A stretch of 50,682 nucleotides of DNA from a virus, in IMG/VR virus record IMGVR_UViG_3300043409_001235, positions 1-50,682 of that record. One strand, given 5' to 3'. The position numbers and the translations under genes are program-made. This document shows, in pieces, positions 1 through 50,682 of this stretch. Positions within the stretch are counted from its first letter, which is position 1, and every line of letters starts with the position of its first letter. A model generated the notes under the pieces. That model worked only from the letters and a program-made list of their open reading frames with translations. It did not search any database and was not told the DNA's origin.

Positions 1-23
1 TTAATCTCCTTGTTGATTTGTAT

Positions 24-31
24 TATTTATA
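24..31 (-). promoter_or_regulatory. T4-type late promoter for the gene beyond the left edge (expected gp23)
   Basis: An exact TATAAATA on the minus strand is followed by a strong AAGGAGATTAA ribosome-binding site that ends at base 1. A gene must therefore start immediately outside the window. In T4 order the gene after gp21-gp22 is the major capsid gene gp23, so this is inferred to be its promoter and leader. A near copy of this whole leader lies at 49,464-49,496. Confidence 0.8.
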
Positions 32-51
32 AGTTTTAATATTTTGATATA

Positions 52-13415: not shown

Positions 13416-14764
13416 TATACTCCTCCTCCACCAAATCCACCACCAGCACCACCACCACCAAATCCATCAAATCCATCGCCGCCACCACCACCATATCCAC
13501 CATCATTGTTTTGACCCATATACCCATCAAGATCACCAAACCCAAAACACGGGTCCCAACAATCTATTACACTACATCCTTTGTTATCAGTGACTTCAAC
13601 AGACCAATGTCTTCCTCCGTGTTTTTCACACAGAAATCTAGAAATATCATTTCTACAAATACCATTGATGCAACAAGATCCAATTTCTTGTAATTCTATA
13701 TTAGTATTATTGCATATACCATATATACAAAAAGTTCCTCCAATGGAATCACAGAACTCTTTAGTAATATAACCTTCACAAGTCACACCTTTACTACAAG
13801 ATCCTAATATTTGTGAAGGTAAACAATCTCCAGGACTAGCACCATATCCTTTACCAAAGAAGTTTGCCTTCCATACAGCACCATTATTTTCTGTGATTAA
13901 ATTTAATATATTTTCTCCACAGCTTAAATTTGCTTCTCCTGGTCTAAACCAAACATTATTTGGAAAATTCCACACAGAATCGTTTTGTATTATAAGAGTT
14001 ATCGACAATAATTCTCCAGTAGATCCAGAAGCTCCAGAAAATCCAGTGAATCCCATAATACCGTTTGGTGTATTTATATAAAATACTCCTGCTTTGGATA
14101 CATCTAGATAAGAACCACTGCTACCTAAAACTTGTTTTTCTAAACTACTTATTATATTATTTGTGATTAATCTAGTAACATATGGGGTATTACCTCCTGG
14201 AATATTTGTGTGTAATATATCTCCAGTAAACCTCATATCTGTTGTTATACCAGCTAATTCTGTGTTAGATTTAAAATAAACTAATGAACCTTGTGAAATA
14301 CCAATAGATGATTGTGTATTGTTTGGACTATCTATACTAATGAAAGTAATTCCAGGAGTTATAGTAATTCCGTTAACACTTGATGTTAACCATTTGAAAT
14401 TAAAAGTAGCAGTAGAACCCGATCCGATTGTTCCTGAGTATGTAATATTCTTTAATAAAGAAATATATGAAGTTGAAGATGCAGCAGAACTAATACCATA
14501 TGCATCAAATAGTTTGTTTCCTACAAAAACTGATGCATCAATATTTTCTACATTATTATTACTATAAGTTATATTAAAACGGCCGTAATTGGTTGATACA
14601 GCAGTTTGTGTAATACTTGTTATATGAGGTGCTGTATTTCCTCTAGATAATACACCACAATCTTCTACTCTATCATTTCCAGTATTCCCAGTTGGACCTC
14701 TAGCTCCATATGCTCCTGGATTACCAGTGAATCCACTAAAAGATATTGCACTAGATCCTATCAT
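13415..14764 (-). CDS. Fibre-like protein: collagen-like start, Cys modules, Gly-rich tail
   Basis: A 449-residue protein built as N-terminal collagen-like Gly-X-Y repeats (GNPGAYGARGPTGNTG, about 13-28), a long Ser/Thr/Gly/Ile beta-rich shaft, two Cys modules (GSCSKGVTCEGYITKEFC and GSCCINGICRNDISRFLC, about 330-385), and a C-terminal tail of almost pure glycine with Phe and Asp. This is a typical trimeric phage fibre layout with added Cys modules. The final GGA GGA GTA codons act as ribosome-binding site for the next gene. It starts with an ATGA overlap with the giant Cys-rich gene; AAGGAGAGG precedes the ATG. Confidence 0.75.
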   Translation of the reverse strand: MIGSSAISFSGFTGNPGAYGARGPTGNTGNDRVEDCGVLSRGNTAPHITSITQTAVSTNYGRFNITYSNNNVENIDASVFVGNKLFDAYGISSAASSTSYISLLKNITYSGTIGSGSTATFNFKWLTSSVNGITITPGITFISIDSPNNTQSSIGISQGSLVYFKSNTELAGITTDMRFTGDILHTNIPGGNTPYVTRLITNNIISSLEKQVLGSSGSYLDVSKAGVFYINTPNGIMGFTGFSGASGSTGELLSITLIIQNDSVWNFPNNVWFRPGEANLSCGENILNLITENNGAVWKANFFGKGYGASPGDCLPSQILGSCSKGVTCEGYITKEFCDSIGGTFCIYGICNNTNIELQEIGSCCINGICRNDISRFLCEKHGGRHWSVEVTDNKGCSVIDCWDPCFGFGDLDGYMGQNNDGGYGGGGGDGFDGFGGGGAGGGFGGGGV

Positions 14765-17700
14765 AGGTAAGGACTTTCCTCTCCTTTAAGATGGCGGTTT
14801 GGATTACAATCATAACAATCTTTATCAAACCCTATAAATCTTCCATTTTTCTGATCACAATCTCCTGGAGTAGTACTCAAACATGTATATAAAGCCGGAA
14901 ATACTATACGACCATTTTCGTCGACGACTGGTTCTTCAACAGTATTTAGACAACACGCACCAATATAATATTTGCAACAATTTTCTCTCATACAATCAGC
15001 TAGTATTCCCTGATCTGCACTACACATTTTATTGTATTCCCATGCAAATGCAAATTTTGGATCTGGTCCACTACAACCCGGCTCTGTTGTAATACTACAA
15101 GACGTTTCCCATGTATATACATTTGTCTTACAACATGCACCAGTTGAGCCTGGTGGACCAGTAATAACTCCACCATCTGAACAAGGATCATCATCACACA
15201 TCTTGTTTGCATCCCAATTACCTGTACATTTACATTGTACAGTATCAGTACAGCTGGTACCTATACAACATGCACCAAGTTCAAACTGATTCGAACTACA
15301 GCCTCCTACAAGATTTTGACAATCCACGTGATCTGTAAATTGTCCTTGTTTTAAAAAACATGAGAATTCATCAAAATTATCACCACATTTTGTGTTTTCC
15401 CCCTCAATATAACAACACGAACCTATTCCTGTAACAACACACTCAGGATTTGGTTTTATGTATCTATTATTCAACCAAGCTTCAGAAGAAATCAATGGAT
15501 ATGTTGGAGTATAGTGCACATGAATATCACTGTAAACAGGATCTAGTATTTCATAATCTGTTGTAATTCCTGCTTCCGCTATAACACGTATTTTTCTTCT
15601 TGGTATATAATCCGTATATGGATCATTTCTAGATATAGGTGTTGATGCTTCTTCTGTTGTATTAAATACTCGAGCAGTATCTCCATATGATTCTACTTCT
15701 CTCCACGCCGATATCGGACTACCGGGCAACCCAGTAAAAGCACCTGTATAGTATCGTGTTCTACCTTTTATACTATAGATCTTTCCAATCTCGTCTGTAG
15801 TTTGTAATGTGCCAGATAATCCAGGATTTGATCTGTAATATAAAACAGGACTAGATCCTTTTATGTCTATTTGACACGGCGCATAAGTTATTAATTTTTT
15901 TACTTCGGCGCCAACTATTGTTTTATAGAAAACTTCATCAATCTGATTAGGGGTATTGGTATTCGGATCCCATGCTTCAATTGGTATAGTTGCATAATCA
16001 TATCTATTTCCCCAACACATAAAATGTCTGGAAATGGCACCAGCTGGTGTTGTACAACGACACACAGTGCACGTTTCCCCAGTCTTTCCAGCAGAAATCC
16101 AATCCCAAGAACCTACGCTGCCGATTGTGCCTAACCGGTTATCACATACTTTATCTGCTGAAATCATAGAAATATATGGCATTGCACCCGTACCACCATG
16201 CCATATTGGATGGTCTTCGTGTCCCAATGTTACTCCATATTTAAAACAACAGGTAAATCCTAGAGAATAAGAAGTATTACACATATCATAATTAATTATA
16301 TTACCGTCTTTAAAAGAACATACATTATTATCAGAATCAAATACTCTAAATTCTATTGGAGTTGCACCATCCATTCCTGTAAGGCCTATATCGTATAATT
16401 TATCTTTTTGATTAGTATAAGATATTTCGTTTACACATTTCATCATATTGGGACCATATTTATTTGAGGCAAACAAAGATAAATCCCTTGAATCTCCTCC
16501 AAATAAATTAATATCTGCTGTAGACCATTTTGTTTTTGTTTGATCTATTTTGCCGTAGGTCTGCCCAGAAAATTGAATCAAATATGGTACAGTTTTTATT
16601 TGAGGAGGACCAAGTATATTGTCTACTCTCTCTATACCAGCATCCCATTTTCCTAAACTAACTACTGCATGTCTTTCACCTACAGCAATTTGATTATAAA
16701 AAACACTAGTATACATGTCTTTTTCGACATCACACGTTCCAGAAGAAGAATATAAAGAACAATAGGTATGACCCACAACATCCCCACACGTCGTGCCTGG
16801 ACCTGCCATGAAATTGTTGGGATATAACATATTTGCTATTCTAAATATTAACAAATCTGGTCTTTCACCAAATACACCCATAGTATATCCAGTATAATTA
16901 ACCATAACAACAGGATTACTATTACCAGTTGTTCCACACACAATCTTGGGAGGAAGAGTAGATCCCACAGGATAAGTAATATCATTTATAACAATTTCGC
17001 GTGGTAATCCAATACTTCCACCAGGATAACCATAATTGTATATATCATTAGCAAGTTCCACACAATCTGCACTCCATCCACTAGACGAACAGCAATTAGG
17101 ATAGAAAGAACATACCAAATCTGAGCAATACGAACATCCAAGTGGAGAACAGTATCCAGCCGGATTGTTGCAAGTACATCCTGCTATACCTACTATACTA
17201 TGAGTAACCCCACAATTATTCATAGATATTCCCTGTGGAAAAGCAGAAAGATAATTAAATCCAAATGGTCGATACGGAAGAACATTCATATTAGACCACA
17301 GAGTAGCAAATACATCACCTTCAGAACTTATACCCACACCAATTGAATAATCGTTAAACGTTGATCCACATAAAACACGAGGTGGAATTACATCTGGATC
17401 ACAAGGTTCAACTGGTGCAACAGGATTACAAGGTATTCTTAGATTTGTATATTCGATGTTATTGATATTCCAAGTAAGAGTTGGACCATGTGGTGGACCT
17501 ACAGGTAACATAACTCCCTGTTGGTATATCAAATTAGAAACAGTAACGCAGTCTGCACTCCACCCTGTTGGAGATGTACCTATATAATTTGATACATCAC
17601 AACAAGCTGGCATTAACAAACACACCATATCTGTACAAAAAGAACAGCCTACAGCAGAACAAGGTGTTAGTGAATTAGCGCATGTGCATCCTGGCAAAAC

Positions 17701-19404
17701 TACATCACCCTCAATACCGACAAGAGTTTTATGTACAGTACTACAATTTGATGATGCTGAAATTTCTATAAAATCGTTTTGATGTACTTTATCATTTCTA
17801 GATCTATTTCCATCTATAAAATATGGAACAGCAGTAAAGTCCAACGATAATTGCATTAAGTCTGAGAAATATAGATCAGATTTTGTTCTGGCACTGAATT
17901 TATCTTTATCGATAATTGATATATAATTTTTGTATATGACTCCACTCAAAAAGGTTGGAGAAACATAAGAAAAATATCTTGATCCTTGTGCAACTTGAAG
18001 GGGGTTCGTGACACTAAAATAATTACTTTCATTACCGCCAGGGAAATTTATTCCCTGTTTATTACTTCCTAATATTTGATTTTTGTAAGAAGATATAGAA
18101 GTATACCATGGTCTATTAGAGTCACTTAAACCATATACATGACTATACGATTCTACACCATTCGGATTACAATTAGGTATTCCGTTTATCAACCCACATG
18201 TAGGAGTTTTATTTATAGGTAAAATAATTGTACTTGATATTCCTTGTATGGATTTCGGGTTTAGTGTTTTATAATAATCCTTTATATTATAATGAGGACA
18301 ACATGAAATAGTTTTACATAAACTACCATTACCTTGACCACAAGTCGGACATGGACCTTCTTCTCCTTCTCCCCCCGATTCGTTTTTACCTGAACCAGAT
18401 CCTGAACCAGATCCTGAACCAGATCCTGAACCAGATCCTGAGTCGTCATCAGGAAGACAAGGTTCGCCATCATTACATGGAGGATTTTGACAACATTGAG
18501 GACATCCATTCACACCACAAGAACCAGTACAATCACAGTCAGGACAACTTCCTTCGCCACACCTTACGCAAAAGCCATCACATGGAGGACATCCTGGACT
18601 TCCACATGGTCCATTACAAGTCGTACATGGAGGACATCCAGGAGTGCCACATATAGGACATGGACATTGAGGACATCCAACAGTACCACATCCTTCTGGA
18701 CAAGTTATATCATCACCACCACAACCCCCAAATCCACCACCACTTCCGCTACCACTACCACTTCCGCTACCACTACCACTTCCGCGGCCACTACCACCGT
18801 CGTTGCCGCATAGAGGACATCCATTCACACCACAAGAACCAGTACAATCACAGTCAGGACAACTTCCTTCGCCACATTTTGTTATACAACTGCCACCACA
18901 TGGAGGACATCCTGGACTTCCACATGGTCCATTACAAGTCGTACATGGAGGACATCCAGGAGTACCACAGGCGGGACAATACCCACTACATGGTCCATTA
19001 CAATCGCCACTACCACACCGAGGACATCCTGGAGTTCCACATGGTCCATTACAAGTCGTACATGGACATTCAAGAGTGCCACAGACGGGACAATTACCAG
19101 TACATTCAGGACATTCGTTTACACCACATGAGCCAACACAACTACACGGAGGACATCCATAATCACCACAATTTCCAACACAAACACCGCCACCACCACC
19201 GCCACCATTACACGGTATACCGTCACCTCCTACTGATAACTCATAACAAAATTCATAAGTTAAGCCGGGTATTAGACCATCTATTTTATATTTTTTTATA
19301 ATAGGAGGGGCATTATCGAATGCATATTTAGAATATCCAATCTCATATAACTCACAAATTTCTGCACAATGTGGCGCATTACATGGACAAGTATTTCCTA
19401 TCAT
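14761..19404 (-). CDS. Giant Cys-rich tail/fibre protein
   Basis: A 1547-residue protein, not assigned to a family. Residues about 65-380 are a dense array of short modules such as CNGPCGTPGCPRC and CTGSCGVNGCPLC, broken by two Gly-Ser linkers. Two later domains (about 585-660 and 745-820) each carry the pattern VC-x4-P-x-CC followed by GWSADCV and a helix, a Cys motif known from large secreted bacterial proteins. The C-terminal 200 residues hold four more GACC-type modules. The start is the ATG at 19,404, which gives an ATGA overlap; an in-frame TTG at 19,410 is less likely. Cysteine load implies disulfide or metal cross-linking, so folding outside the reducing cytoplasm or after lysis is inferred. 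Confidence 0.8.
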   Translation of the reverse strand: MIGNTCPCNAPHCAEICELYEIGYSKYAFDNAPPIIKKYKIDGLIPGLTYEFCYELSVGGDGIPCNGGGGGGGVCVGNCGDYGCPPCSCVGSCGVNECPECTGNCPVCGTLECPCTTCNGPCGTPGCPRCGSGDCNGPCSGYCPACGTPGCPPCTTCNGPCGSPGCPPCGGSCITKCGEGSCPDCDCTGSCGVNGCPLCGNDGGSGRGSGSGSGSGSGSGSGGGFGGCGGDDITCPEGCGTVGCPQCPCPICGTPGCPPCTTCNGPCGSPGCPPCDGFCVRCGEGSCPDCDCTGSCGVNGCPQCCQNPPCNDGEPCLPDDDSGSGSGSGSGSGSGSGSGKNESGGEGEEGPCPTCGQGNGSLCKTISCCPHYNIKDYYKTLNPKSIQGISSTIILPINKTPTCGLINGIPNCNPNGVESYSHVYGLSDSNRPWYTSISSYKNQILGSNKQGINFPGGNESNYFSVTNPLQVAQGSRYFSYVSPTFLSGVIYKNYISIIDKDKFSARTKSDLYFSDLMQLSLDFTAVPYFIDGNRSRNDKVHQNDFIEISASSNCSTVHKTLVGIEGDVVLPGCTCANSLTPCSAVGCSFCTDMVCLLMPACCDVSNYIGTSPTGWSADCVTVSNLIYQQGVMLPVGPPHGPTLTWNINNIEYTNLRIPCNPVAPVEPCDPDVIPPRVLCGSTFNDYSIGVGISSEGDVFATLWSNMNVLPYRPFGFNYLSAFPQGISMNNCGVTHSIVGIAGCTCNNPAGYCSPLGCSYCSDLVCSFYPNCCSSSGWSADCVELANDIYNYGYPGGSIGLPREIVINDITYPVGSTLPPKIVCGTTGNSNPVVMVNYTGYTMGVFGERPDLLIFRIANMLYPNNFMAGPGTTCGDVVGHTYCSLYSSSGTCDVEKDMYTSVFYNQIAVGERHAVVSLGKWDAGIERVDNILGPPQIKTVPYLIQFSGQTYGKIDQTKTKWSTADINLFGGDSRDLSLFASNKYGPNMMKCVNEISYTNQKDKLYDIGLTGMDGATPIEFRVFDSDNNVCSFKDGNIINYDMCNTSYSLGFTCCFKYGVTLGHEDHPIWHGGTGAMPYISMISADKVCDNRLGTIGSVGSWDWISAGKTGETCTVCRCTTPAGAISRHFMCWGNRYDYATIPIEAWDPNTNTPNQIDEVFYKTIVGAEVKKLITYAPCQIDIKGSSPVLYYRSNPGLSGTLQTTDEIGKIYSIKGRTRYYTGAFTGLPGSPISAWREVESYGDTARVFNTTEEASTPISRNDPYTDYIPRRKIRVIAEAGITTDYEILDPVYSDIHVHYTPTYPLISSEAWLNNRYIKPNPECVVTGIGSCCYIEGENTKCGDNFDEFSCFLKQGQFTDHVDCQNLVGGCSSNQFELGACCIGTSCTDTVQCKCTGNWDANKMCDDDPCSDGGVITGPPGSTGACCKTNVYTWETSCSITTEPGCSGPDPKFAFAWEYNKMCSADQGILADCMRENCCKYYIGACCLNTVEEPVVDENGRIVFPALYTCLSTTPGDCDQKNGRFIGFDKDCYDCNPNRHLKGEESPYL
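18389..18441 (-). repeat. 12-bp tandem repeat encoding a Gly-Ser linker
   Basis: Tandem copies of gaaccagatcct (plus-strand reading) encode the SGSGSG linker of the giant Cys-rich protein. A second, less regular Gly-Ser linker lies near 18,735-18,795. Such repeats can change copy number and so linker length. Confidence 0.8.
18498..18650 (-). repeat. Internal duplication, copy A (copy B at 18,813-18,968)
   Basis: About 150 bases inside the giant Cys-rich gene recur 315-318 bases away at 18,813-18,968, in the same frame and nearly identical except for a short divergent patch. The unit encodes several Cys modules. The near identity shows recent in-frame duplication. Confidence 0.85.
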
Positions 19405-20225
19405 GGACAACCACCTCCACCATCATCATCGCCGCCACCATCATCGTCACCACCACCATCATCATCGCCACCATCATCATCGCCGCCACCATCATCGTCA
19501 CCACCACCACCACCACAGTCTCCTTTGGTAACCCATCCATTTGCTGCAGCATCCCATTGTTTACTACAAGGTTCTTGGTCGTCATAACAACCCCATTCTT
19601 CAGATTTACAAGCACAACAAGCGCAGATTGCCTCGCGAGCAACTTCTCCCGTGATTTGATTAAGTGGTGGACATGCAGTATCGCACCCACCACATGTACC
19701 GCAAGCGTGTGCAGATTCCACGCCGGGACAACATTTGTTGCCGTTACACCCTGGCCAAGTTTTGGAGACACTTATAGCTGCTGGACATACTTGACCAGGT
19801 ACCTCTGGCGTGGGCCATTTGTCTGGTGCAGATCCACAGCATATGTGATAATCTGGTGCTACTTTGCAGCCATAATGTGACAAATCCCACCACGCCGTGA
19901 CAACATCACCACACAGTTTTTCTGGTGGACCATCAAAATCAGCTGTTGGATCTGGTCCGCTTTGTGGAGCTCCACTAAAAGCTTGAGGTCTGCCTGTCTC
20001 TCCAGCTTCACACGAACAACACTCTGTACGGGCTGCAAAACAATAATGCGACAGTTTGAGACCAGTTGGACCTAATGGAACTGAATTTCCATTGGAATCT
20101 GTCCCACCACCACCATTTTCTTTGCCATTTAGTTGAGTGAATGGAGGACAACCACGACACAACGCATCTTGGCAATACTTATATTGCCTAGTCGGCGTCC
20201 ACACTGTTTTTGATGTATGCGACAT
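19401..20225 (-). CDS. Cys-rich protein with Asp-Gly repeat tail
   Basis: A 274-residue protein not recognised. It has about thirty cysteines (for example ECCSCEAGETGR, CGTCGGCDTACPP, CACCACKSEEWGC) and ends in roughly 35 residues of DDDGG units followed by CP. The Asp-Gly tail looks suited to bind Ca2+ or to form an extended acidic spacer; this is inference. Its Gly codons supply the GGAGG upstream of the next gene, which overlaps by ATGA. Its own start overlaps the previous stop (TAATG). The tail is encoded by trinucleotide-like repeats at 19,411-19,515 and may vary in length. Confidence 0.7.
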   Translation of the reverse strand: MSHTSKTVWTPTRQYKYCQDALCRGCPPFTQLNGKENGGGGTDSNGNSVPLGPTGLKLSHYCFAARTECCSCEAGETGRPQAFSGAPQSGPDPTADFDGPPEKLCGDVVTAWWDLSHYGCKVAPDYHICCGSAPDKWPTPEVPGQVCPAAISVSKTWPGCNGNKCCPGVESAHACGTCGGCDTACPPLNQITGEVAREAICACCACKSEEWGCYDDQEPCSKQWDAAANGWVTKGDCGGGGGDDDGGGDDDGGDDDGGGDDDGGGDDDGGGGCP

Positions 20226-43816: not shown

Positions 43817-45910
43817 ATGAAATATAAAAATGAATTAATAAATGTAATTAAAAATACTTTTATTTTTGGTATCAATGATACGTTATTACCAAATACGTAT
43901 GATACTAATTTATATCCAGAAGATAAAAATTTTAAAGATATCGATAACCCTCAACAAAGAAATATAAATTCAGATATTATTTTCGATAGACCATTGAATA
44001 ATATTACTAACTCTAAATTTAAAAATAAAAATTCGATGGCATCTAGATTTTTAGATATTCAAAAAAATATAGACATACTACCAAAAAAATTCAACAAGAT
44101 ATTGGAAAAAATAAATATAGTTCAACCAAACAATGATATTATTAAACACTTACCATCAGAATCCGTTGAACCCGTATCAAAGACCTTAGCCACATCAGAA
44201 TCGTTTGAACCAATACCCGAGTCCGTAAAGATACCACCAGAATCCTTTGAACCCGTATCAAAGACCTTAGCCACATCAGAATCGTTTGAACCCGTATCAA
44301 ACACTTTAGCCACATCAGAATCGTTTGAACCTGTATCAAAGACCTCTATTGTACCATCAGACTCCTTTGAACCAATACCTGAGTCCGTAAAGATACCATC
44401 AGACTCATTTGAACCCGTATCAAACACTTTAGCCACATCAGACTCCTTTGAACCTGTATCAAAGACCTCTATTGTACCATCAGACTCCTTTGAACCCGTA
44501 TCAAAGACCTTAGCCACATCAGACTCCTTTGAACCCGTATCAAAGACTTTAGCCACATCAGACTCCTTTGAACCCGTATCAAAGACCTTAGCCACATCAG
44601 ACTCCTTTGAACCAATACCTGAGTCCGTAAACATACCATCAGAATCCTTTGAACCCGTATCAAAGACCTCTATTGTACCATCAGAATCCTTTGAACCCGT
44701 ATCAAAGACCTTAGCCACATCAGAATCCTTTGAACCAATACCTGAGTCCGTAAACATACCATCAGACTCCTTTGAACCAATACCTGAGTCCGTAAACATA
44801 CCATCAGAATCCTTTGAACCCGTATCAAAGACCTCTATTGTACCATCAGAATCCTTTGAACCCGTATCAAAGACCTTAGCCACATCAGAATCCTTTGAAC
44901 CAATACCCGAGTCCGTAAACATACCATCAGAATCCTTTGAACCAATACCTGAGTCCGTAAAGATACCATCAGAATCCTTTGAACCCGTATCAAAGACCTT
45001 AGCCACATCAGAATCGTTTGAACCTGTATCAAAGACCTCTATTGTACCATCAGACTCCTTTGAACCAATACCCGAGTCCGTAAACATACCATCAGAATCC
45101 TTTGAACCAATACCCGAGTCCGTAAAGATACCATCAGACTCCTTTGAACCAATACCTGAGTCCGTAAACATACCATCAGAATCCTTTGAACCCGTATCAA
45201 AGACTTTAGCCACATCAGAATCGTTTGAACCTGTATCAAAGACCTCTATTGTACCATCAGACTCCTTTGAACCCGTATCAAAGACCTTAGCCACATCAGA
45301 CTCCTTTGAACCAATACCCGAGTCCGTAAAGATACCTGATATTCTTTCTTCCTCTGAAGAAACAACTCAAACAATTACTCCATATACAAAAAGTATACCA
45401 AATTCTGTTGAAAATTTAAAAAAAATATCATTTGAACAAAAATTTAAAAGAGGAATTTTTTACCCAGATGCTGTAGAAATAAATAATATAAAAAGAAATT
45501 TATTTACAGATATTCTAGGAGATAATGTATCTCAAAATATTTTAAATAAAAATTTACAAAAAATTCCTGCATTTAAAGATGGAGGCAAATTTGCCTCATC
45601 TGGTGTAGATTTTAAAGCTATAGCTTATAATGAACCAGGCAGTAGATCTAATGAAACTCATATAATACAACCAGATAATACACCTATGACTACTATAAGC
45701 AATATTAATACAACTAAAGAATCGTCTATTCCTATAGAAATGGAACAAGATATATCAGAATCTATATTAATTCTTAGTAACAGAATAAAGAAATTGGACA
45801 GGAAAAAAAACGACACACCAGGGCCAGAACCAAAATTGAAATATCCTCCAAACGGTAATAGAGGATTAAATAATAATATAGAAATATATTATAATTATTT
45901 TAATACATAA
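43817..45910 (+). CDS. Repeat-built protein in the tape-measure position
   Basis: A 697-residue protein with a unique N-terminus (1-113), a repeat region (about 114-507) and a unique C-terminus. The repeats are 29 units of 13-14 residues of three kinds: SFEPVSKTLATSE, SFEPVSKTSIVPSD and SFEPIPESVKIPSE. The C-terminus holds IPAFKDGGKFASSGVDF, reminiscent of the FxDGG segments near the ends of tape-measure proteins. The order tube-like, gp26, gp51, this gene is that of tape-measure loci, and no other gp29 candidate is in the window. Pro-rich repeats are unlike the usual helical ruler, so the role is tentative. It ends at a terminator. Confidence 0.7.
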   Translation: MKYKNELINVIKNTFIFGINDTLLPNTYDTNLYPEDKNFKDIDNPQQRNINSDIIFDRPLNNITNSKFKNKNSMASRFLDIQKNIDILPKKFNKILEKINIVQPNNDIIKHLPSESVEPVSKTLATSESFEPIPESVKIPPESFEPVSKTLATSESFEPVSNTLATSESFEPVSKTSIVPSDSFEPIPESVKIPSDSFEPVSNTLATSDSFEPVSKTSIVPSDSFEPVSKTLATSDSFEPVSKTLATSDSFEPVSKTLATSDSFEPIPESVNIPSESFEPVSKTSIVPSESFEPVSKTLATSESFEPIPESVNIPSDSFEPIPESVNIPSESFEPVSKTSIVPSESFEPVSKTLATSESFEPIPESVNIPSESFEPIPESVKIPSESFEPVSKTLATSESFEPVSKTSIVPSDSFEPIPESVNIPSESFEPIPESVKIPSDSFEPIPESVNIPSESFEPVSKTLATSESFEPVSKTSIVPSDSFEPVSKTLATSDSFEPIPESVKIPDILSSSEETTQTITPYTKSIPNSVENLKKISFEQKFKRGIFYPDAVEINNIKRNLFTDILGDNVSQNILNKNLQKIPAFKDGGKFASSGVDFKAIAYNEPGSRSNETHIIQPDNTPMTTISNINTTKESSIPIEMEQDISESILILSNRIKKLDRKKNDTPGPEPKLKYPPNGNRGLNNNIEIYYNYFNT
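44155..45337 (+). repeat. 29 tandem 39/42-bp coding repeats of three types
   Basis: Counted from the translation: 12 units ending in KTLAT (39 bp), 6 ending in KTSIVP (42 bp) and 11 ending in ESVKIP or ESVNIP (42 bp), total 1182 bp. Order is scrambled, and units differ mainly by Glu/Asp and a few silent changes. Near identity at DNA level shows recent expansion. Because repeats contain no stop in other frames, long false reading frames occur on the minus strand. Confidence 0.93.
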
Positions 45911-46936: not shown

Positions 46937-46965
46937 ATCATACTATGAAACACCAAAACTGTCAA
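46937..46965 (-). promoter_or_regulatory. Sigma70-type promoter for gp32
   Basis: TTGACA (46,960-46,965) and TATGAT (46,937-46,942) on the minus strand with an exact 17-base spacer. It lies at the end of gp33, so gp32 can be expressed early by unmodified host polymerase, about 75 bases upstream of the gp32 ATG. Confidence 0.8.
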
Positions 46966-47207
46966 GCGAATGGTAGTTTATTTTTAGATTTTGGTAATAA
47001 ATTCAGACCCCTACCCTCTTCTTGTATCTTTTCCAGGATTGGTCTAGATAACAATTTAGATATTATGTCATATTCCATGCTTTCTATTTCAGAAACAGCA
47101 ATAGTGGCGTCTATATACGAAGATCCGTATGTTTTGACATATTTTTCTATTTTTTTAGAAAGTTCTTCTTTGGAGAAATCTATTTTATTCATAGTCTTAG
47201 TATACAT
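46962..47207 (-). CDS. 33: Late transcription co-activator, gp33-like
   Basis: An 81-residue protein of the gp33 type, which binds RNA polymerase and couples late-promoter initiation to the sliding clamp. The pattern SKKIEKYVKTYGSSYIDATI, then ISKLLSRPILEKIQEEGRGLNLL fits gp33 of marine T4-like phages (quoted in part). T4 gp33 has 112 residues and also lies near gp32. The start could be the ATG at 47,207 or the in-frame ATG at 47,192; neither has a strong ribosome-binding site. The last bases overlap the gp32 promoter -35 box. Confidence 0.85.
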   Translation of the reverse strand: MYTKTMNKIDFSKEELSKKIEKYVKTYGSSYIDATIAVSEIESMEYDIISKLLSRPILEKIQEEGRGLNLLPKSKNKLPFA

Positions 47208-47256: not shown

Positions 47257-48555
47257 ATGCCAACAGCAGACACCAATAATAATATTATAGTAACCATCTA
47301 CGACGGTATAGCCACATTAGGAACAGATTATAACACATCTGGAGTCAGTTCCAGTATTCATATTCCTCATTCTAAGATGATATGGGGAAATCAAAATGAA
47401 TCCTATAGAGTGGGTTTAGAATATCCTATGCCGGTAAATGTGCTATCCTTTAATGGAAATTCAGGCGCATCATATCTAATGGGAGTAACAGGTAGTGTTT
47501 ATGGTCTTGGAACGTTTACAGTAGGAAATACATCAACCAATCCGTTGTATGTAGTTGGCGTTTCTGGATCAACACACTCTCCAGTACAAATCAAAGGAAC
47601 AATTCAGGGCATAACAAGCGGAATTTTGGTAGGAATAACCACAGGACCTATATTATTCTCTAATACTTCTATTGGAATTTATGGAATAAGTGGTGGCACT
47701 GCCATGGCAATAACTGGCGGTAGATACTTAAACAATACAACAGATTCTATCAGAAGTATTGCATACCTAACAGGTTTAAGTATGACTACTGGTTTGGTGG
47801 GTTCCACTACAGATAGTGTTAGAATATTTGGATCATCTGGTGAAAAATACATACCAACAGTATTAAATTATCTTAGCGGAAACACACTATTTGGTGTGGG
47901 TATGAGTGGCGATGCTGTAAAAGTCAGTATTCAAAATACAGGATTTACATTCACCGTAAATCTTTCAACTTCTATTGGTGTAACTAATGGTACTGAATCT
48001 GCACTAAAAATACAAGGTGGTACTGCTGGAGATAATCCAGTTTTAATCAAATACTATAACAATAGTTCAGTTCCTGTAACAATATCTTCTGTGATTCAAA
48101 CAGAAATGGTAACTGTAGGCAGCACATACGATAATCAAATAAAATCTATAATAACTGCTTTAACGGGTTCAACAGGAAATATACAAAGTATTAAAGATAG
48201 TACAAATCTTATTTCTACTATTAATGACAAACTTTCTACAAATGGTGTTACTGTACGAATTTCAGAAATATCAAAACCAAATAGAATTGTTAATGGTACA
48301 AGTTTATTCACATCTTCGTCCAATGTTGTTCAATTACCAAGTAATGTATTAAAAAGTGGAATAAATCTTAAAACTTCATCTTCTAATACTTCGACAGTTT
48401 ATGTTGGAAATAATACGATTGTTTCTACAAAAGAAACTGCGTATCCATTAGAACCAGGTGAATCTATATTCATAGAATGTAATAATACAAATTTGATATT
48501 TTGTTATAGTATAATAGATCCAACAAAGCAAAAATTAATTTATATGGGTTCTTAA
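47257..48555 (+). CDS. Putative virion/fibre protein
   Basis: A 432-residue protein with the Gly/Ser/Thr/Ile/Val-rich beta composition of phage structural proteins (GVTGSVYGLGTFTVG, YGISGGTAMAITGG). The N-terminus (IVTIYDGIATLGTDYN) and a helical patch near residues 295-330 are more complex. No family recognised. AAAGGAAACAT precedes the ATG, and a TATATATAT box lies about 15 bases further upstream. It is divergent from gp33 across 49 bases. Likely a tail or capsid-surface protein, inferred from composition. Confidence 0.65.
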   Translation: MPTADTNNNIIVTIYDGIATLGTDYNTSGVSSSIHIPHSKMIWGNQNESYRVGLEYPMPVNVLSFNGNSGASYLMGVTGSVYGLGTFTVGNTSTNPLYVVGVSGSTHSPVQIKGTIQGITSGILVGITTGPILFSNTSIGIYGISGGTAMAITGGRYLNNTTDSIRSIAYLTGLSMTTGLVGSTTDSVRIFGSSGEKYIPTVLNYLSGNTLFGVGMSGDAVKVSIQNTGFTFTVNLSTSIGVTNGTESALKIQGGTAGDNPVLIKYYNNSSVPVTISSVIQTEMVTVGSTYDNQIKSIITALTGSTGNIQSIKDSTNLISTINDKLSTNGVTVRISEISKPNRIVNGTSLFTSSSNVVQLPSNVLKSGINLKTSSSNTSTVYVGNNTIVSTKETAYPLEPGESIFIECNNTNLIFCYSIIDPTKQKLIYMGS

Positions 48556-48559
48556 ACAT

Positions 48560-49363
48560 ATGTTTAATTCAAACAAATATAAAAATACAAAAAACAATAA
48601 AGAAAAAAACGAGTTTGAATATGTCAAGACGATTTCTTTTATTGGATTGGGTATAAGTGGATCGTATCTTTTAAATGATAGCTACACAGAGGGAATTCTT
48701 ATAACTCCCCAAGTTACTGTAGTTAAGTCTACAGCTCCAGACATTGTCTTTTTTGATTTTAATAATAAGTTGTATAATATAAACACAAACTCAAAAATTA
48801 TAGAATCGTTTTTTTCTAAATTTAGTGTAGGCAATACCTTTGATGTAACAGATTCTGTTTATGATTTTGACGAACACGATTTGAATGCAAATTTTACTTT
48901 TGTTACTTTTAAAAACAATTTACTAGTGGCTACATGCGCAGCTGGACTTACTAATGCTGCAGAACAAACCTATTACCCAGAATTATTCAATAGTGTTCCT
49001 GTGTTTGAGTTATCTTCTTCTAAAGTATTATATACAGATCCTAATACATTATTATTGACTAATATTATACCTAGTGTTAATAACTCTTTTATTTCCGCAG
49101 GAATAAAAGCAAATGATATTTTAGAATTTTTTGACCAAAAATATACAGTAGAATCTATCAAAAGTAAAATAAACAATACAGTAGAAGAATTGATATTAAT
49201 TAATTTTAACAATTATACAGTTATACCACCAATACAATTGAATAGTTATACTATAATTAATGTATACAAGCGTCTATCTACTAGTAGTGGAACAAGTCTT
49301 TCAGTGACTCCAACTGTAACTACAATTGCAGTTTCTGATACTCCAAATCAAATGTATATGTAA
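48560..49363 (+). CDS. Putative virion protein, unknown function
   Basis: A 267-residue protein not recognised. It has a Lys/Asn-rich start, then a beta-rich body (EYVKTISFIGLGISGSYLL, DVTDSVYDFDEHDL) and a Thr/Ser-rich end (SLSVTPTVTTIAVSD). It follows the 432-residue gene after four bases, so the two are probably co-translated and act together. Its TAA is followed within three bases by the tRNA 3'-half remnant. Confidence 0.65.
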   Translation: MFNSNKYKNTKNNKEKNEFEYVKTISFIGLGISGSYLLNDSYTEGILITPQVTVVKSTAPDIVFFDFNNKLYNINTNSKIIESFFSKFSVGNTFDVTDSVYDFDEHDLNANFTFVTFKNNLLVATCAAGLTNAAEQTYYPELFNSVPVFELSSSKVLYTDPNTLLLTNIIPSVNNSFISAGIKANDILEFFDQKYTVESIKSKINNTVEELILINFNNYTVIPPIQLNSYTIINVYKRLSTSSGTSLSVTPTVTTIAVSDTPNQMYM

Positions 49364-49365
49364 AA

Positions 49366-49389
49366 CATTTCCAATTGGGATCGAACCAC
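49366..49389 (-). pseudogene. Remnant of a tRNA 3' half
   Basis: Twenty-four bases matching the acceptor end and T arm of the tRNA-Arg at 49,929-50,002 (21 of 24 identical, position by position with 49,929-49,952). Sequence beyond the T arm does not form a tRNA. Immediately flanking bases (gtaaa before catt) are also shared. Confidence 0.75.
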
Positions 49390-49497
49390 TCAACACTGAA
49401 TACTTAATATACGACAAGATCGACAAAGACGAACTGAAGCTCAGGCCTATAAATATTAGAACTTATAAATAATATAAATCAACAAAAGGAGATTAAC
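49390..49497 (+). promoter_or_regulatory. Leader region with two late promoters and gp23-like leader
   Basis: After the tRNA remnant comes about 55 bases with no gene, then exact TATAAATA boxes at 49,448-49,455 and 49,464-49,471 and an AAAAGGAGATTAAC ribosome-binding site. From 49,464 to 49,496 the sequence equals the gp23 leader at 1-31 (minus strand) except for one substitution and a two-base insertion. Confidence 0.85.
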
Positions 49498-49662
49498 ATG
49501 CCTAGATTCCCAGGACCCCCACGAAGTCAGCGCGAAGCTCATGCAAGAGTCCAACAAAGTAGAACCCAAGGCGCCGCTGAGCGGCGGGCAGCATTTCAGG
49601 CAATTCCGCAGCGGAACCGTCGTCCAATTGGCCCTCCATTTCCTAGTCCGAGGCCTCGGTGA
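49498..49662 (+). CDS. Arg/Pro-rich basic mini-protein 1
   Basis: A 54-residue protein: starts MPRFPGPPRSQREAHARVQQ and ends GPPFPSPRPR, with about twelve arginines. It has an excellent ribosome-binding site and two late promoters, so it is probably strongly expressed late. GC content is far above the rest of the window and many arginines use CGN codons although the phage's own tRNA reads AGA, signs of foreign origin. A paralogue follows at 49,728. Basic and Pro-rich character suggests nucleic-acid binding or membrane activity, but no family is recognised. It could instead be a structured RNA, because the same bases form strong hairpins. Confidence 0.6.
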   Translation: MPRFPGPPRSQREAHARVQQSRTQGAAERRAAFQAIPQRNRRPIGPPFPSPRPR

Positions 49663-49687
49663 GGCGCCATATTCCGGTGAATTTGAT

Positions 49688-49715
49688 GGGCCGATAACAA
49701 AGTAAACATTCCCAA
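49688..49715 (+). repeat. 28-bp direct repeat, copy 1 (copy 2 at 49,910-49,937)
   Basis: Two identical 28-base copies follow each of the two GC-rich mini-genes. The last bases of each copy include the tRNA 3' acceptor sequence ATTCCCA; in copy 2 this is the real tRNA end. They mark a tandem duplication of a unit of about 225-230 bases made of ribosome-binding site, mini-gene and repeat. Confidence 0.9.
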
Positions 49716-49727
49716 AAGGAGATTAAC

Positions 49728-49919
49728 ATGCCATTCCCTTCACCCGCACGAAGCCAAACCCAAGTCAATAGAACCCAACAAGGGCGCGAAGGCGCCGCTG
49801 CCCGGCATCGGGCAGCATTTCCGGCCTCTCCGCCAATAATTAACGGCCGGGCCGTCGGAAGAGTTGGTCCTCGATTTCCTAGTCCGAGCACTCGTTCGCA
49901 GAGAGCCTCGGGCCGATAA
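49728..49919 (+). CDS. Arg/Pro-rich basic mini-protein 2 (paralogue of 1)
   Basis: A 63-residue protein starting MPFPSPARSQTQVNRTQQ and ending FPSPSTRSQRASGR. It shares with the mini-protein at 49,498 the N-terminal P-x-R-S-Q element, an NRTQ/SRTQ element, GAA-x-R-RAAF and the FPSP element, and has the same AAAAGGAGATTAAC ribosome-binding site. About twelve arginines, strongly basic. The GC-rich body forms hairpins at 49,800-49,813 and 49,843-49,855. It has no promoter of its own and would be read from the two late promoters upstream. Function unknown. Confidence 0.6.
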   Translation: MPFPSPARSQTQVNRTQQGREGAAARHRAAFPASPPIINGRAVGRVGPRFPSPSTRSQRASGR

Positions 49920-49937
49920 CAAAGTAAACATTCCCAA
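49910..49937 (+). repeat. 28-bp direct repeat, copy 2, running into the tRNA 3' end
   Basis: Identical to 49,688-49,715. It covers the stop of mini-gene 2 and the first eight bases of the tRNA 3' end read on the plus strand. Confidence 0.9.
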
Positions 49938-50002
49938 CTGGGATCGAACCAGTAACCTACAGATTAGAAATCTGTTGCTCTATCCAATTGAGCTATGGGA
50001 AT
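49929..50002 (-). tRNA. tRNA-Arg (anticodon UCU)
   Basis: A complete cloverleaf on the minus strand: acceptor ATTCCCA with TGGGAAT, D stem GCTC with GAGC, anticodon stem ACAGA with TCTGT around loop TTTCTAA (anticodon UCU), T stem ACTGG with CCAGT around TTCGATC, discriminator G. CCA is not encoded. It reads AGA, a codon favoured in AT-rich phage genes. Its 5' end directly adjoins the T run of a terminator. Confidence 0.95.
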
Positions 50003-50032
50003 AAAAAAGCCCACTATGTTTCCATAGTGGGC
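50003..50032 (-). terminator. Intrinsic terminator after the 99-residue gene
   Basis: A perfect 10-bp stem GCCCACTATG/CATAGTGGGC with a four-base loop, followed on the minus strand by TTTTTT. It lies 20 bases after the stop of the gene at 50,053 and immediately before the tRNA. Confidence 0.92.
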
Positions 50033-50052
50033 TTATAAGTTTAAAGATTCAC

Positions 50053-50352
50053 TTAAGCTAAGCTAAGTGAAGGTGTTGCAATCTTTTTGGAAGGAACAAA
50101 CAAATTATTAGTAATTGCTCCTGTATAATGATCTTCCAATTCCTTCAGTGGATCAATAATAAAAACTACATTCTTTGTATTGATCGAAACGCCTTCACTT
50201 GTGTTTGCATATGGAAGCCACTTAACAAAAAGTAACTTTCCTTCCTGTGAAGGAACTAGAACACATGGATCCTTGAGAGTTAACATATCTCCCTTTTCCG
50301 TAATCTTTGCCATAATTTCTTCACCACTATCGAGTCTTACAATCTTAACCAT
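50053..50352 (-). CDS. Small conserved-looking protein, possible Sm-like fold
   Basis: A 99-residue protein. It starts MVKIVRLDSGEEIMAKITEK and contains LKDPCVLVP and LPYANTSEGVSI, a pattern of short strands with a G-E-x-I turn that resembles Sm/Hfq-like small barrels found in phages; this is a weak resemblance. The ATG at 50,352 is chosen over one at 50,388 because AAAGGAGATT precedes it; it overlaps the upstream gene by eight bases. It ends in a strong terminator. Function unknown. Confidence 0.7.
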   Translation of the reverse strand: MVKIVRLDSGEEIMAKITEKGDMLTLKDPCVLVPSQEGKLLFVKWLPYANTSEGVSINTKNVVFIIDPLKELEDHYTGAITNNLFVPSKKIATPSLSLA

Positions 50353-50605
50353 TTGAATCTCCTTTATTAAAATTCTTATCACAATCACATTTATTCAAAA
50401 CACTATCCCAGAACCCACAAGGTTCTTTATCGATTGGCCAACAAGAACAACAATCATCACCTAAAAGATTAGTGTTTTCTGGTTGCATTGCCCTTGCATG
50501 TGCAGTTATCACTTCATCTTCTGTTAACAAGAGATCTAGACATCTTCCGTCAACGTTGACTTTGGTTTTTGTTAGGCTAGCTGGTTCGTTAGAGGAATTA
50601 ATCAT
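50345..50605 (-). CDS. Small Cys-containing hypothetical protein
   Basis: An 86-residue protein not recognised. The first half is TKVNVDGRCLDLLLTEDEV-like helical sequence; the second half carries DDCCSCWP, EPCGFWD and NKCDCDKN, six cysteines that could bind a metal. It is translationally coupled to the following gene and has a late promoter at 50,623-50,630, 17 bases upstream of the ATG. Ribosome-binding site weak (AGG). Confidence 0.6.
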   Translation of the reverse strand: MINSSNEPASLTKTKVNVDGRCLDLLLTEDEVITAHARAMQPENTNLLGDDCCSCWPIDKEPCGFWDSVLNKCDCDKNFNKGDSNG

Positions 50606-50622
50606 ATTGAAAACCTACAAGC

Positions 50623-50630
50623 TATTTATA
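50623..50630 (-). promoter_or_regulatory. T4-type late promoter for the two small right-edge genes
   Basis: Exact TATAAATA on the minus strand between the stop region of the edge gene and the 86-residue gene, at a spacing that leaves a short normal leader. Confidence 0.7.
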
Positions 50631-50682
50631 CAACTTTTTTAGATTTACTCTTAGGCTTTTTGAAGATTTTATCATAATTCTT
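50626..50682 (-). CDS. C-terminal end of a gene cut by the right edge
   Basis: An open frame enters from the right edge and ends in TAA, giving the last 18 residues KNYDKIFKKPKSKSKKVV. The Lys-rich tail is plausible for a real protein end, and its stop sits at the late promoter of the next gene, as elsewhere in this genome. Too short to identify. Confidence 0.5.
   Translation of the reverse strand, partial: KNYDKIFKKPKSKSKKVV

Follow-up and report, generated by a model that had tools for sequence, protein, structure and literature searches.

Near the right-hand end of this phage DNA, two very small, GC-rich open reading frames (ORFs) follow a near copy of the phage's own capsid leader. This locus raises the question of how such genes came to lie there, whether they might be expressed late in infection, and what their products might do. 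The window analyzed here is the whole 50,682-base contig of IMG/VR record IMGVR_UViG_3300043409_001235. It belongs to an uncultured T4-like phage, as indicated by the presence of gp22, gp21, the portal and sheath families, a gp33-type late regulator, and gp32, the last of which is ~53-55% identical to gp32 of Pelagibacter phages and marine cyanophages. The gp33 family member is located at 46962-47207, and by this gene the phage possesses T4-type late regulation. The contig ends at the gp23 leader, before the ATG, and gp23 itself lies off the contig. Bases 1-44 were identified as this leader because of the gene order, in which the genes for the gp22 scaffold and the gp21 protease precede it.

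The two small ORFs are designated mini-genes 1 and 2:

49498..49662, + strand: mini-gene 1, 54 aa, basic and Arg/Pro-rich (ORF list, composition)
49728..49919, + strand: mini-gene 2, 63 aa, paralogue of mini-gene 1 (ORF list, alignment, tblastn)

Both are present where the original prediction had placed two tiny basic proteins of 54 and 63 residues, and its remark that their CGN codons and GC content are unlike the rest agrees with our counts. CGN codons make up 16 of the 23 Arg codons in the mini-genes compared to 98 of 302 in 21 larger genes, and for CGG alone the counts are 7 of 23 and 4 of 302. The region is the most GC-rich DNA of the contig, reaching 0.595 per 200 nt versus a maximum of 0.535 elsewhere and a contig mean of 0.33. 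GC3 is 0.39 and 0.46 in the two mini-genes compared to 0.18 in the phage, and their high GC content arises mainly from codon positions 1 and 2 (0.67-0.72), with GC3 well below these values. Arg and Pro together account for 43% of the 54-aa ORF and 32% of the 63-aa ORF, which places the mini-genes first and second among the contig's 39 ATG-initiated ORFs of at least 25 aa that are preceded by a Shine-Dalgarno (SD) sequence. Both products have a pI of 12 and a charge of +9.6. Thus, both small ORFs are compositionally foreign. Each begins with AAGGAGATTAACATG, and each ATG follows, at a distance of 6 bases, a GGAG that the two units have in common. The mini-genes are probably translated, and the main rival to this view is that the ORFs are neutral.

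Upstream of mini-gene 1 lies the leader copy, whose features are listed here together with the original:

1..44, - strand: original gp23 late promoter and leader (gp22/gp21 upstream; aligned with the copy)
49451..49497, + strand: copy of the gp23 leader (alignment), with the late promoter TATAAATA at 49464-49471 and the ribosome-binding site AAGGAG at 49486-49491
49448..49455, + strand: second TATAAATA, straddling the upstream edge of the copied leader
49389..49450, + strand: AT-richer joining segment (sequence), a possible gene tail for which no match was found

It had been claimed that positions 49464-49496 match bases 1-31 with one substitution and a two-base insertion. This description is exact when the reverse complement of 1-31 is used, and the match continues through another 13 upstream bases (49451-49463), which add one substitution. 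In the full alignment, 42 of 44 aligned bases are identical with a 2-nt gap, and the within-contig BLAST comparison of the copy with 1-44 gives E = 2e-12. The second TATAAATA that was said to lie just upstream is likewise present, at 49448. This motif is common in the contig (25 sites versus 13.6 expected). The leader copy scores 37, whereas no other TATAAATA site of the window exceeds 19 and the best leader match in the gp21-gp23 loci of 80 relatives scores 24. The likeness therefore exceeds what a shared late-promoter consensus provides, and the copy is specific to gp23 of the same phage. A scan of viral_contigs with the leader pattern returned one chance match, inside an unrelated gene. DNA matches in loci L009 and L013 (~35 bp, 84%) were considered as late leaders and rejected, as they represent an ordinary -10-like and SD region. 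The leader region contains no sigma-70-like promoter of note and no terminator, and there is no terminator on the + strand within 48500-50682. The mini-genes may be expressed late from the copied leader, but the earlier claim of expression at capsid level, which was based on sequence similarity only, found no support in our analysis.

How the segment came to its present position was addressed by comparing gene order with relatives. The relevant features are as follows:

48560..49363, + strand: p267, the neighbor upstream of the segment (synteny), whose stop codon abuts the tRNA end in relatives
49363..49388, + strand: left repeat copy, 26 bp of the tRNA-Arg 3' end that agree with the right copy at 24/26 positions and are located where the real tRNA end lies in relatives
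49926..49951, + strand: right repeat copy, within the intact tRNA gene and its 3' flank
49928..50003, - strand: tRNA-Arg, anticodon tct, conserved in relatives
50053..50352, - strand: phrog_527 gene, the right-hand syntenic anchor

In relatives, the gene order is phrog_527, tRNA-Arg(tct), p267, a 432-aa gene, gp33, and gp32. Since a search with p267 as the query found no match, the phrog_527 gene and the 432-aa gene served as the anchors for synteny. The distance from the p267 stop to the tRNA end is 0-24 bp in 12 relative contigs with this common gene order (some of which are near-identical to each other) versus 564 bp here. By this comparison, the ~563-bp segment is an insertion that is absent from every relative examined, and it is seen in one contig only. 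Its two flanks carry the 26-bp copies of the tRNA 3' end, and 12 bp of that end recur between the mini-genes as a third, partial copy. Among 59 tRNA entries (the window plus the fetched loci, with some contigs counted twice), this tRNA-Arg is the only one whose 3' end recurs with five mismatches or fewer. The insertion is real and unusual, and probably recent. The anatomy in the original prediction holds for the leader copy and the foreign ORFs, and it missed the insertion, the tRNA-end repeats, and the paralogy described below.

Several other observations concern this neighborhood. Right after the left tRNA-end copy, positions 49389-49469 (+ strand) could encode a gene tail, LNTEYLIYDKIDKDELKLRPINIRTYK, followed by a stop, for which no match was found. 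In a relative's locus (L030:3532-6455), the p267 homologue is tandemly duplicated with 94% DNA identity over 775 bp, and the C-terminal module of the upstream copy (phrog_2295) is rich in both GC and glycine. A 106-aa phrog_7759 gene comes next. The place beside tRNA-Arg therefore exchanges modules in other phages too. In the more distant relatives L014 and L016, the tRNA and p267 are separated by one or two small genes of ~131-136 aa, on the 3' side of the phrog_527 homologue, and no tRNA-end repeats accompany them. The tRNA/p267 junction has therefore taken up extra genes more than once. Finally, a strong 12-bp hairpin followed by a T-run (50007-50034, - strand) is located between the phrog_527 gene and the tRNA-Arg gene, and the tRNA would therefore sit just behind a terminator.

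The mini-genes are 54% identical in a global alignment, with a tblastn E value of ~1e-7, and they are diverged tandem paralogues. Each belongs to a unit whose borders are repeated:

49688..49715, + strand: 3' border of unit 1, 28/28 identical to 49910-49937 and including the 12-bp tRNA-end piece at 49704-49715
49713..49732, + strand: ribosome-binding border of unit 2, 20/20 identical to 49483-49502, without its own promoter
49910..49937, + strand: 3' border of unit 2, which extends into the tRNA, 28/28 identical to the unit 1 border

Gaps between the two mini-gene copies (3, 3, 3, 3, and 11+1 nt) preserve the reading frame as far as the C-terminus, and among the protein comparisons the in-frame one has the highest score (119 versus at most 98 for the others). 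The C-terminal frame of mini-gene 2 is not kept in mini-gene 1. No purifying selection is visible, because the three codon positions have similar numbers of mismatches (16/13/14) and the differing codons are 22 nonsynonymous versus 7 synonymous. Both relaxed and diversifying selection would fit this pattern. The unit borders are 100% identical versus 72% for the interiors, a contrast with a probability of ~1e-6 under uniform divergence (a rough estimate made after seeing the pattern), and simple duplication in place does not explain it. Selection on the ribosome-binding site, conversion, or the arrival of unit 2 as a separate cassette are possible explanations. A more far-reaching version, to which we give very little weight, is an integron-cassette-like array in which units that lack a promoter, have constant borders (AAGGAGATTAACATGCC ... 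GGGCCGATAACAAAGTAAACATTCCCAA), and vary in their Arg/Pro-rich interiors would be collected at the tRNA end behind the copied capsid leader. A scan of viral_contigs with the ribosome-binding border pattern gave 19 matches, all in unrelated genes. A structured noncoding RNA was also considered and rejected, as the units share no common stable fold (z scores of +0.9 and -2.9). Rfam yielded nothing above the gathering score except the tRNA, and a sub-threshold match to Plastid-ycf2 was discarded because it is antisense over the tRNA.

Our preferred reading, to which we assign a probability of about one half, is that the segment is a recently acquired, moron-type accessory cassette that was established by recombination at a tRNA end, carries a copied late leader, underwent tandem duplication, and encodes basic peptides made late in infection. 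A foreign, GC-rich ORF coding for an Arg/Pro-rich product would have been linked to a second copy of the late leader of gp23 from the same phage. Recombination would have placed the leader and ORF at the 3' end of tRNA-Arg, with the 26-bp tRNA end now present on either side. Subsequently, the gene and its ribosome-binding site would have been duplicated in tandem, taking 12 bp of the tRNA end along. We infer that joining occurred by illegitimate recombination and that the duplication took place in situ. The result would be a two-gene late operon subject to T4-type late transcription from TATAAATA, with the promoterless unit 2 read from unit 1 and both ORFs translated from identical strong start sites. 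Given the lack of a + strand terminator, transcription would continue through the tRNA and the phrog_527 gene in the antisense direction. The products would be two basic, mostly disordered peptides that would most likely bind a polyanion, either DNA or RNA of the phage or its host, at a late stage of infection.

The most serious competitor, although we consider it rather unlikely, is that the insertion is real but is neutral passenger DNA, with useless frames that happen to be open in GC-rich sequence, a leader that was carried along or lies there by the chance of joining, and no function for any peptides. The even mismatches over codon positions and the 22 nonsynonymous changes among 29 differing codons are what would be expected of such DNA. 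Likewise, other frames are open over long stretches, mini-gene 1 lacks the C-terminal frame of mini-gene 2, and the mini-proteins have no homologues. However, the start borders are identical in both copies, the gaps respect the frame that also gives the best protein comparison, and a full capsid leader lies exactly before an ATG, all of which argue for genes that are used. An assembly chimera might be suspected because the insertion is known from a single contig, has repeats at its junctions, and shows a jump in composition. Yet both flanks continue the syntenic order of the relatives, 2 of the 26 positions differ between the outer repeats, the leader comes from the same phage, and the inner junction, where CCCAA is directly followed by AAGGAG, would be absent from both parent alleles, so that genuine reads must underlie it. 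An artifact is very improbable.

Elements that integrate at tRNA 3' ends by means of tyrosine recombinases are flanked on both sides by a direct repeat of the tRNA end. Such a repeat is found here (26 bp, 24 identical), but the segment is tiny, no recombinase was found, and the genome is that of a lytic-type phage. In this scenario, which we regard as doubtful, a minimal mobile element would have used the T-arm and acceptor end of tRNA-Arg as its attachment site, with a recombinase acting in trans, the outer repeats as attL and attR, and the inner 12 bp as a trace of a second integration. The insertion does sit exactly at the tRNA 3' end, the 26-bp repeat spans the T-arm and acceptor end, a third partial copy lies between the units, and tRNA genes have been proposed as recombination substrates in T4-like cyanophages (PMC3037559). 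On the other hand, no integrase (PF00589) was detected in the contig, itself a fragment, or in the records of 10 relatives (also fragments), although control genomes were positive. Furthermore, no other tRNA in the loci shows the repeat pattern, the inner copy is only 12 bp long, and an outside element would not bring a leader that comes from the same phage. Although anatomy alone cannot decide how the joining occurred, illegitimate recombination or template switching is favored over site-specific integration because of the missing integrase and the absence of the pattern at other tRNAs.

No homologue of the mini-proteins was found in viral_contigs, phages, or genome_contigs, where scans of the viral and genome collections start from short exact peptide patterns, could miss distant relatives, and may leave out records very near the window. 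The whole records of 21 relatives and PHROGs, Pfam, NCBIfam, and PADLOC likewise gave no match, nor did PDB sequences at E values up to 10 (a set that does not include very short peptides). Alternative reading frames had no phage match, and no donor for the ORF was found. AlphaFold2 predicted, for two sequences and with low confidence (mean pLDDT 70, pTM 0.27), a helix at residues 11-34 with loose arms. By charge alone, the peptides would most likely bind nucleic acid or some other polyanion. The suggested role in the virion, in DNA condensation, or in host killing was not borne out by homologues, by sequence matches to solved structures, or by a codon-position signal of selection. That the peptides are virion or DNA-condensing components made at capsid level would suit their charge, pI, and leader. 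Nevertheless, we judge it improbable, as they have no homologue in any virion family, the model is a low-confidence helix with loose arms, and charge alone cannot separate this role from other binding to nucleic acids or ribosomes. Host-killing action on the ribosome is brought to mind by the short, Arg/Pro-rich composition, since the ribosome exit tunnel is the site of action of proline-rich antimicrobial peptides (PMC11549390). However, the likeness to these peptides is one of composition only, and no solved-structure sequence matched in the PDB search described above. Of all the readings weighed, we give this one the least credence.

Some parts of this anatomy are known from other phages. 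Lambdoid morons (PMC1524935) are, like the segment here, short insertions with their own promoter and an ORF of deviant GC content between conserved genes. In contrast to them, the host genome is T4-like, the late promoter is copied from the phage's own gp23, the two ORFs are paralogous, no + strand terminator was found, and tRNA-end repeats bound the insert. The locus thus has the extra DNA, the distinct GC content, and, as far as its sequence indicates, the promoter of a moron, and we call it moron-type rather than a strict moron because a terminator of its own is missing from the + strand. Nolan et al. (2006) observed that late promoters in five T4-like phages are confined to positions upstream of conserved late genes and that the majority of novel ORFs do not resemble morons (PMC1524935). 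Sullivan et al. (2010) noted that tRNA genes accompany nonsyntenic regions in cyanophages and may be recombination substrates (PMC3037559). The locus departs from the former pattern and is a concrete example of the latter suggestion. The tRNA-associated mobile gene cassettes of T4-like cyanophages similarly place nonsyntenic genes beside tRNA genes, but they are larger and metabolic or endonuclease-associated, whereas the segment here is 563 bp long, has no endonuclease, and shows explicit tRNA-end repeats (PMC3037559). The promoter-early-stem-loop (PeSL) regulatory cassettes of T4-type phages resemble this locus in tying duplicated regulatory sequence to gene shuffling, but they combine an early promoter with a stem-loop terminator, unlike the late TATAAATA found here, with no promoter-adjacent stem-loop terminator (PMC4503421). 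Classification as a PeSL cassette was therefore rejected.

This locus may serve as an example of how a T4-like phage could recruit foreign DNA into late expression through a copy of its capsid leader that is fused to an orphan ORF and set at a tRNA end. The point about late promoters and morons and that about tRNA recombination come together here in a single anatomy that can be tested. Should the peptides be produced, they would represent an unstudied class of late phage peptides.

Two additional ORFs of the contig contain repeats. In the 697-aa protein encoded at 43817-45910 (+ strand), a 14-aa unit (type ESFEPVSKTLATS) occurs ~29 times, and this protein lacks a credible PHROG match. A 1549-aa ORF at 14761-19410 (- strand), with a TTG start and no PHROG match, includes GC-rich internal repeats at ~18.4-19.5 kb in which GC content rises to 0.535.
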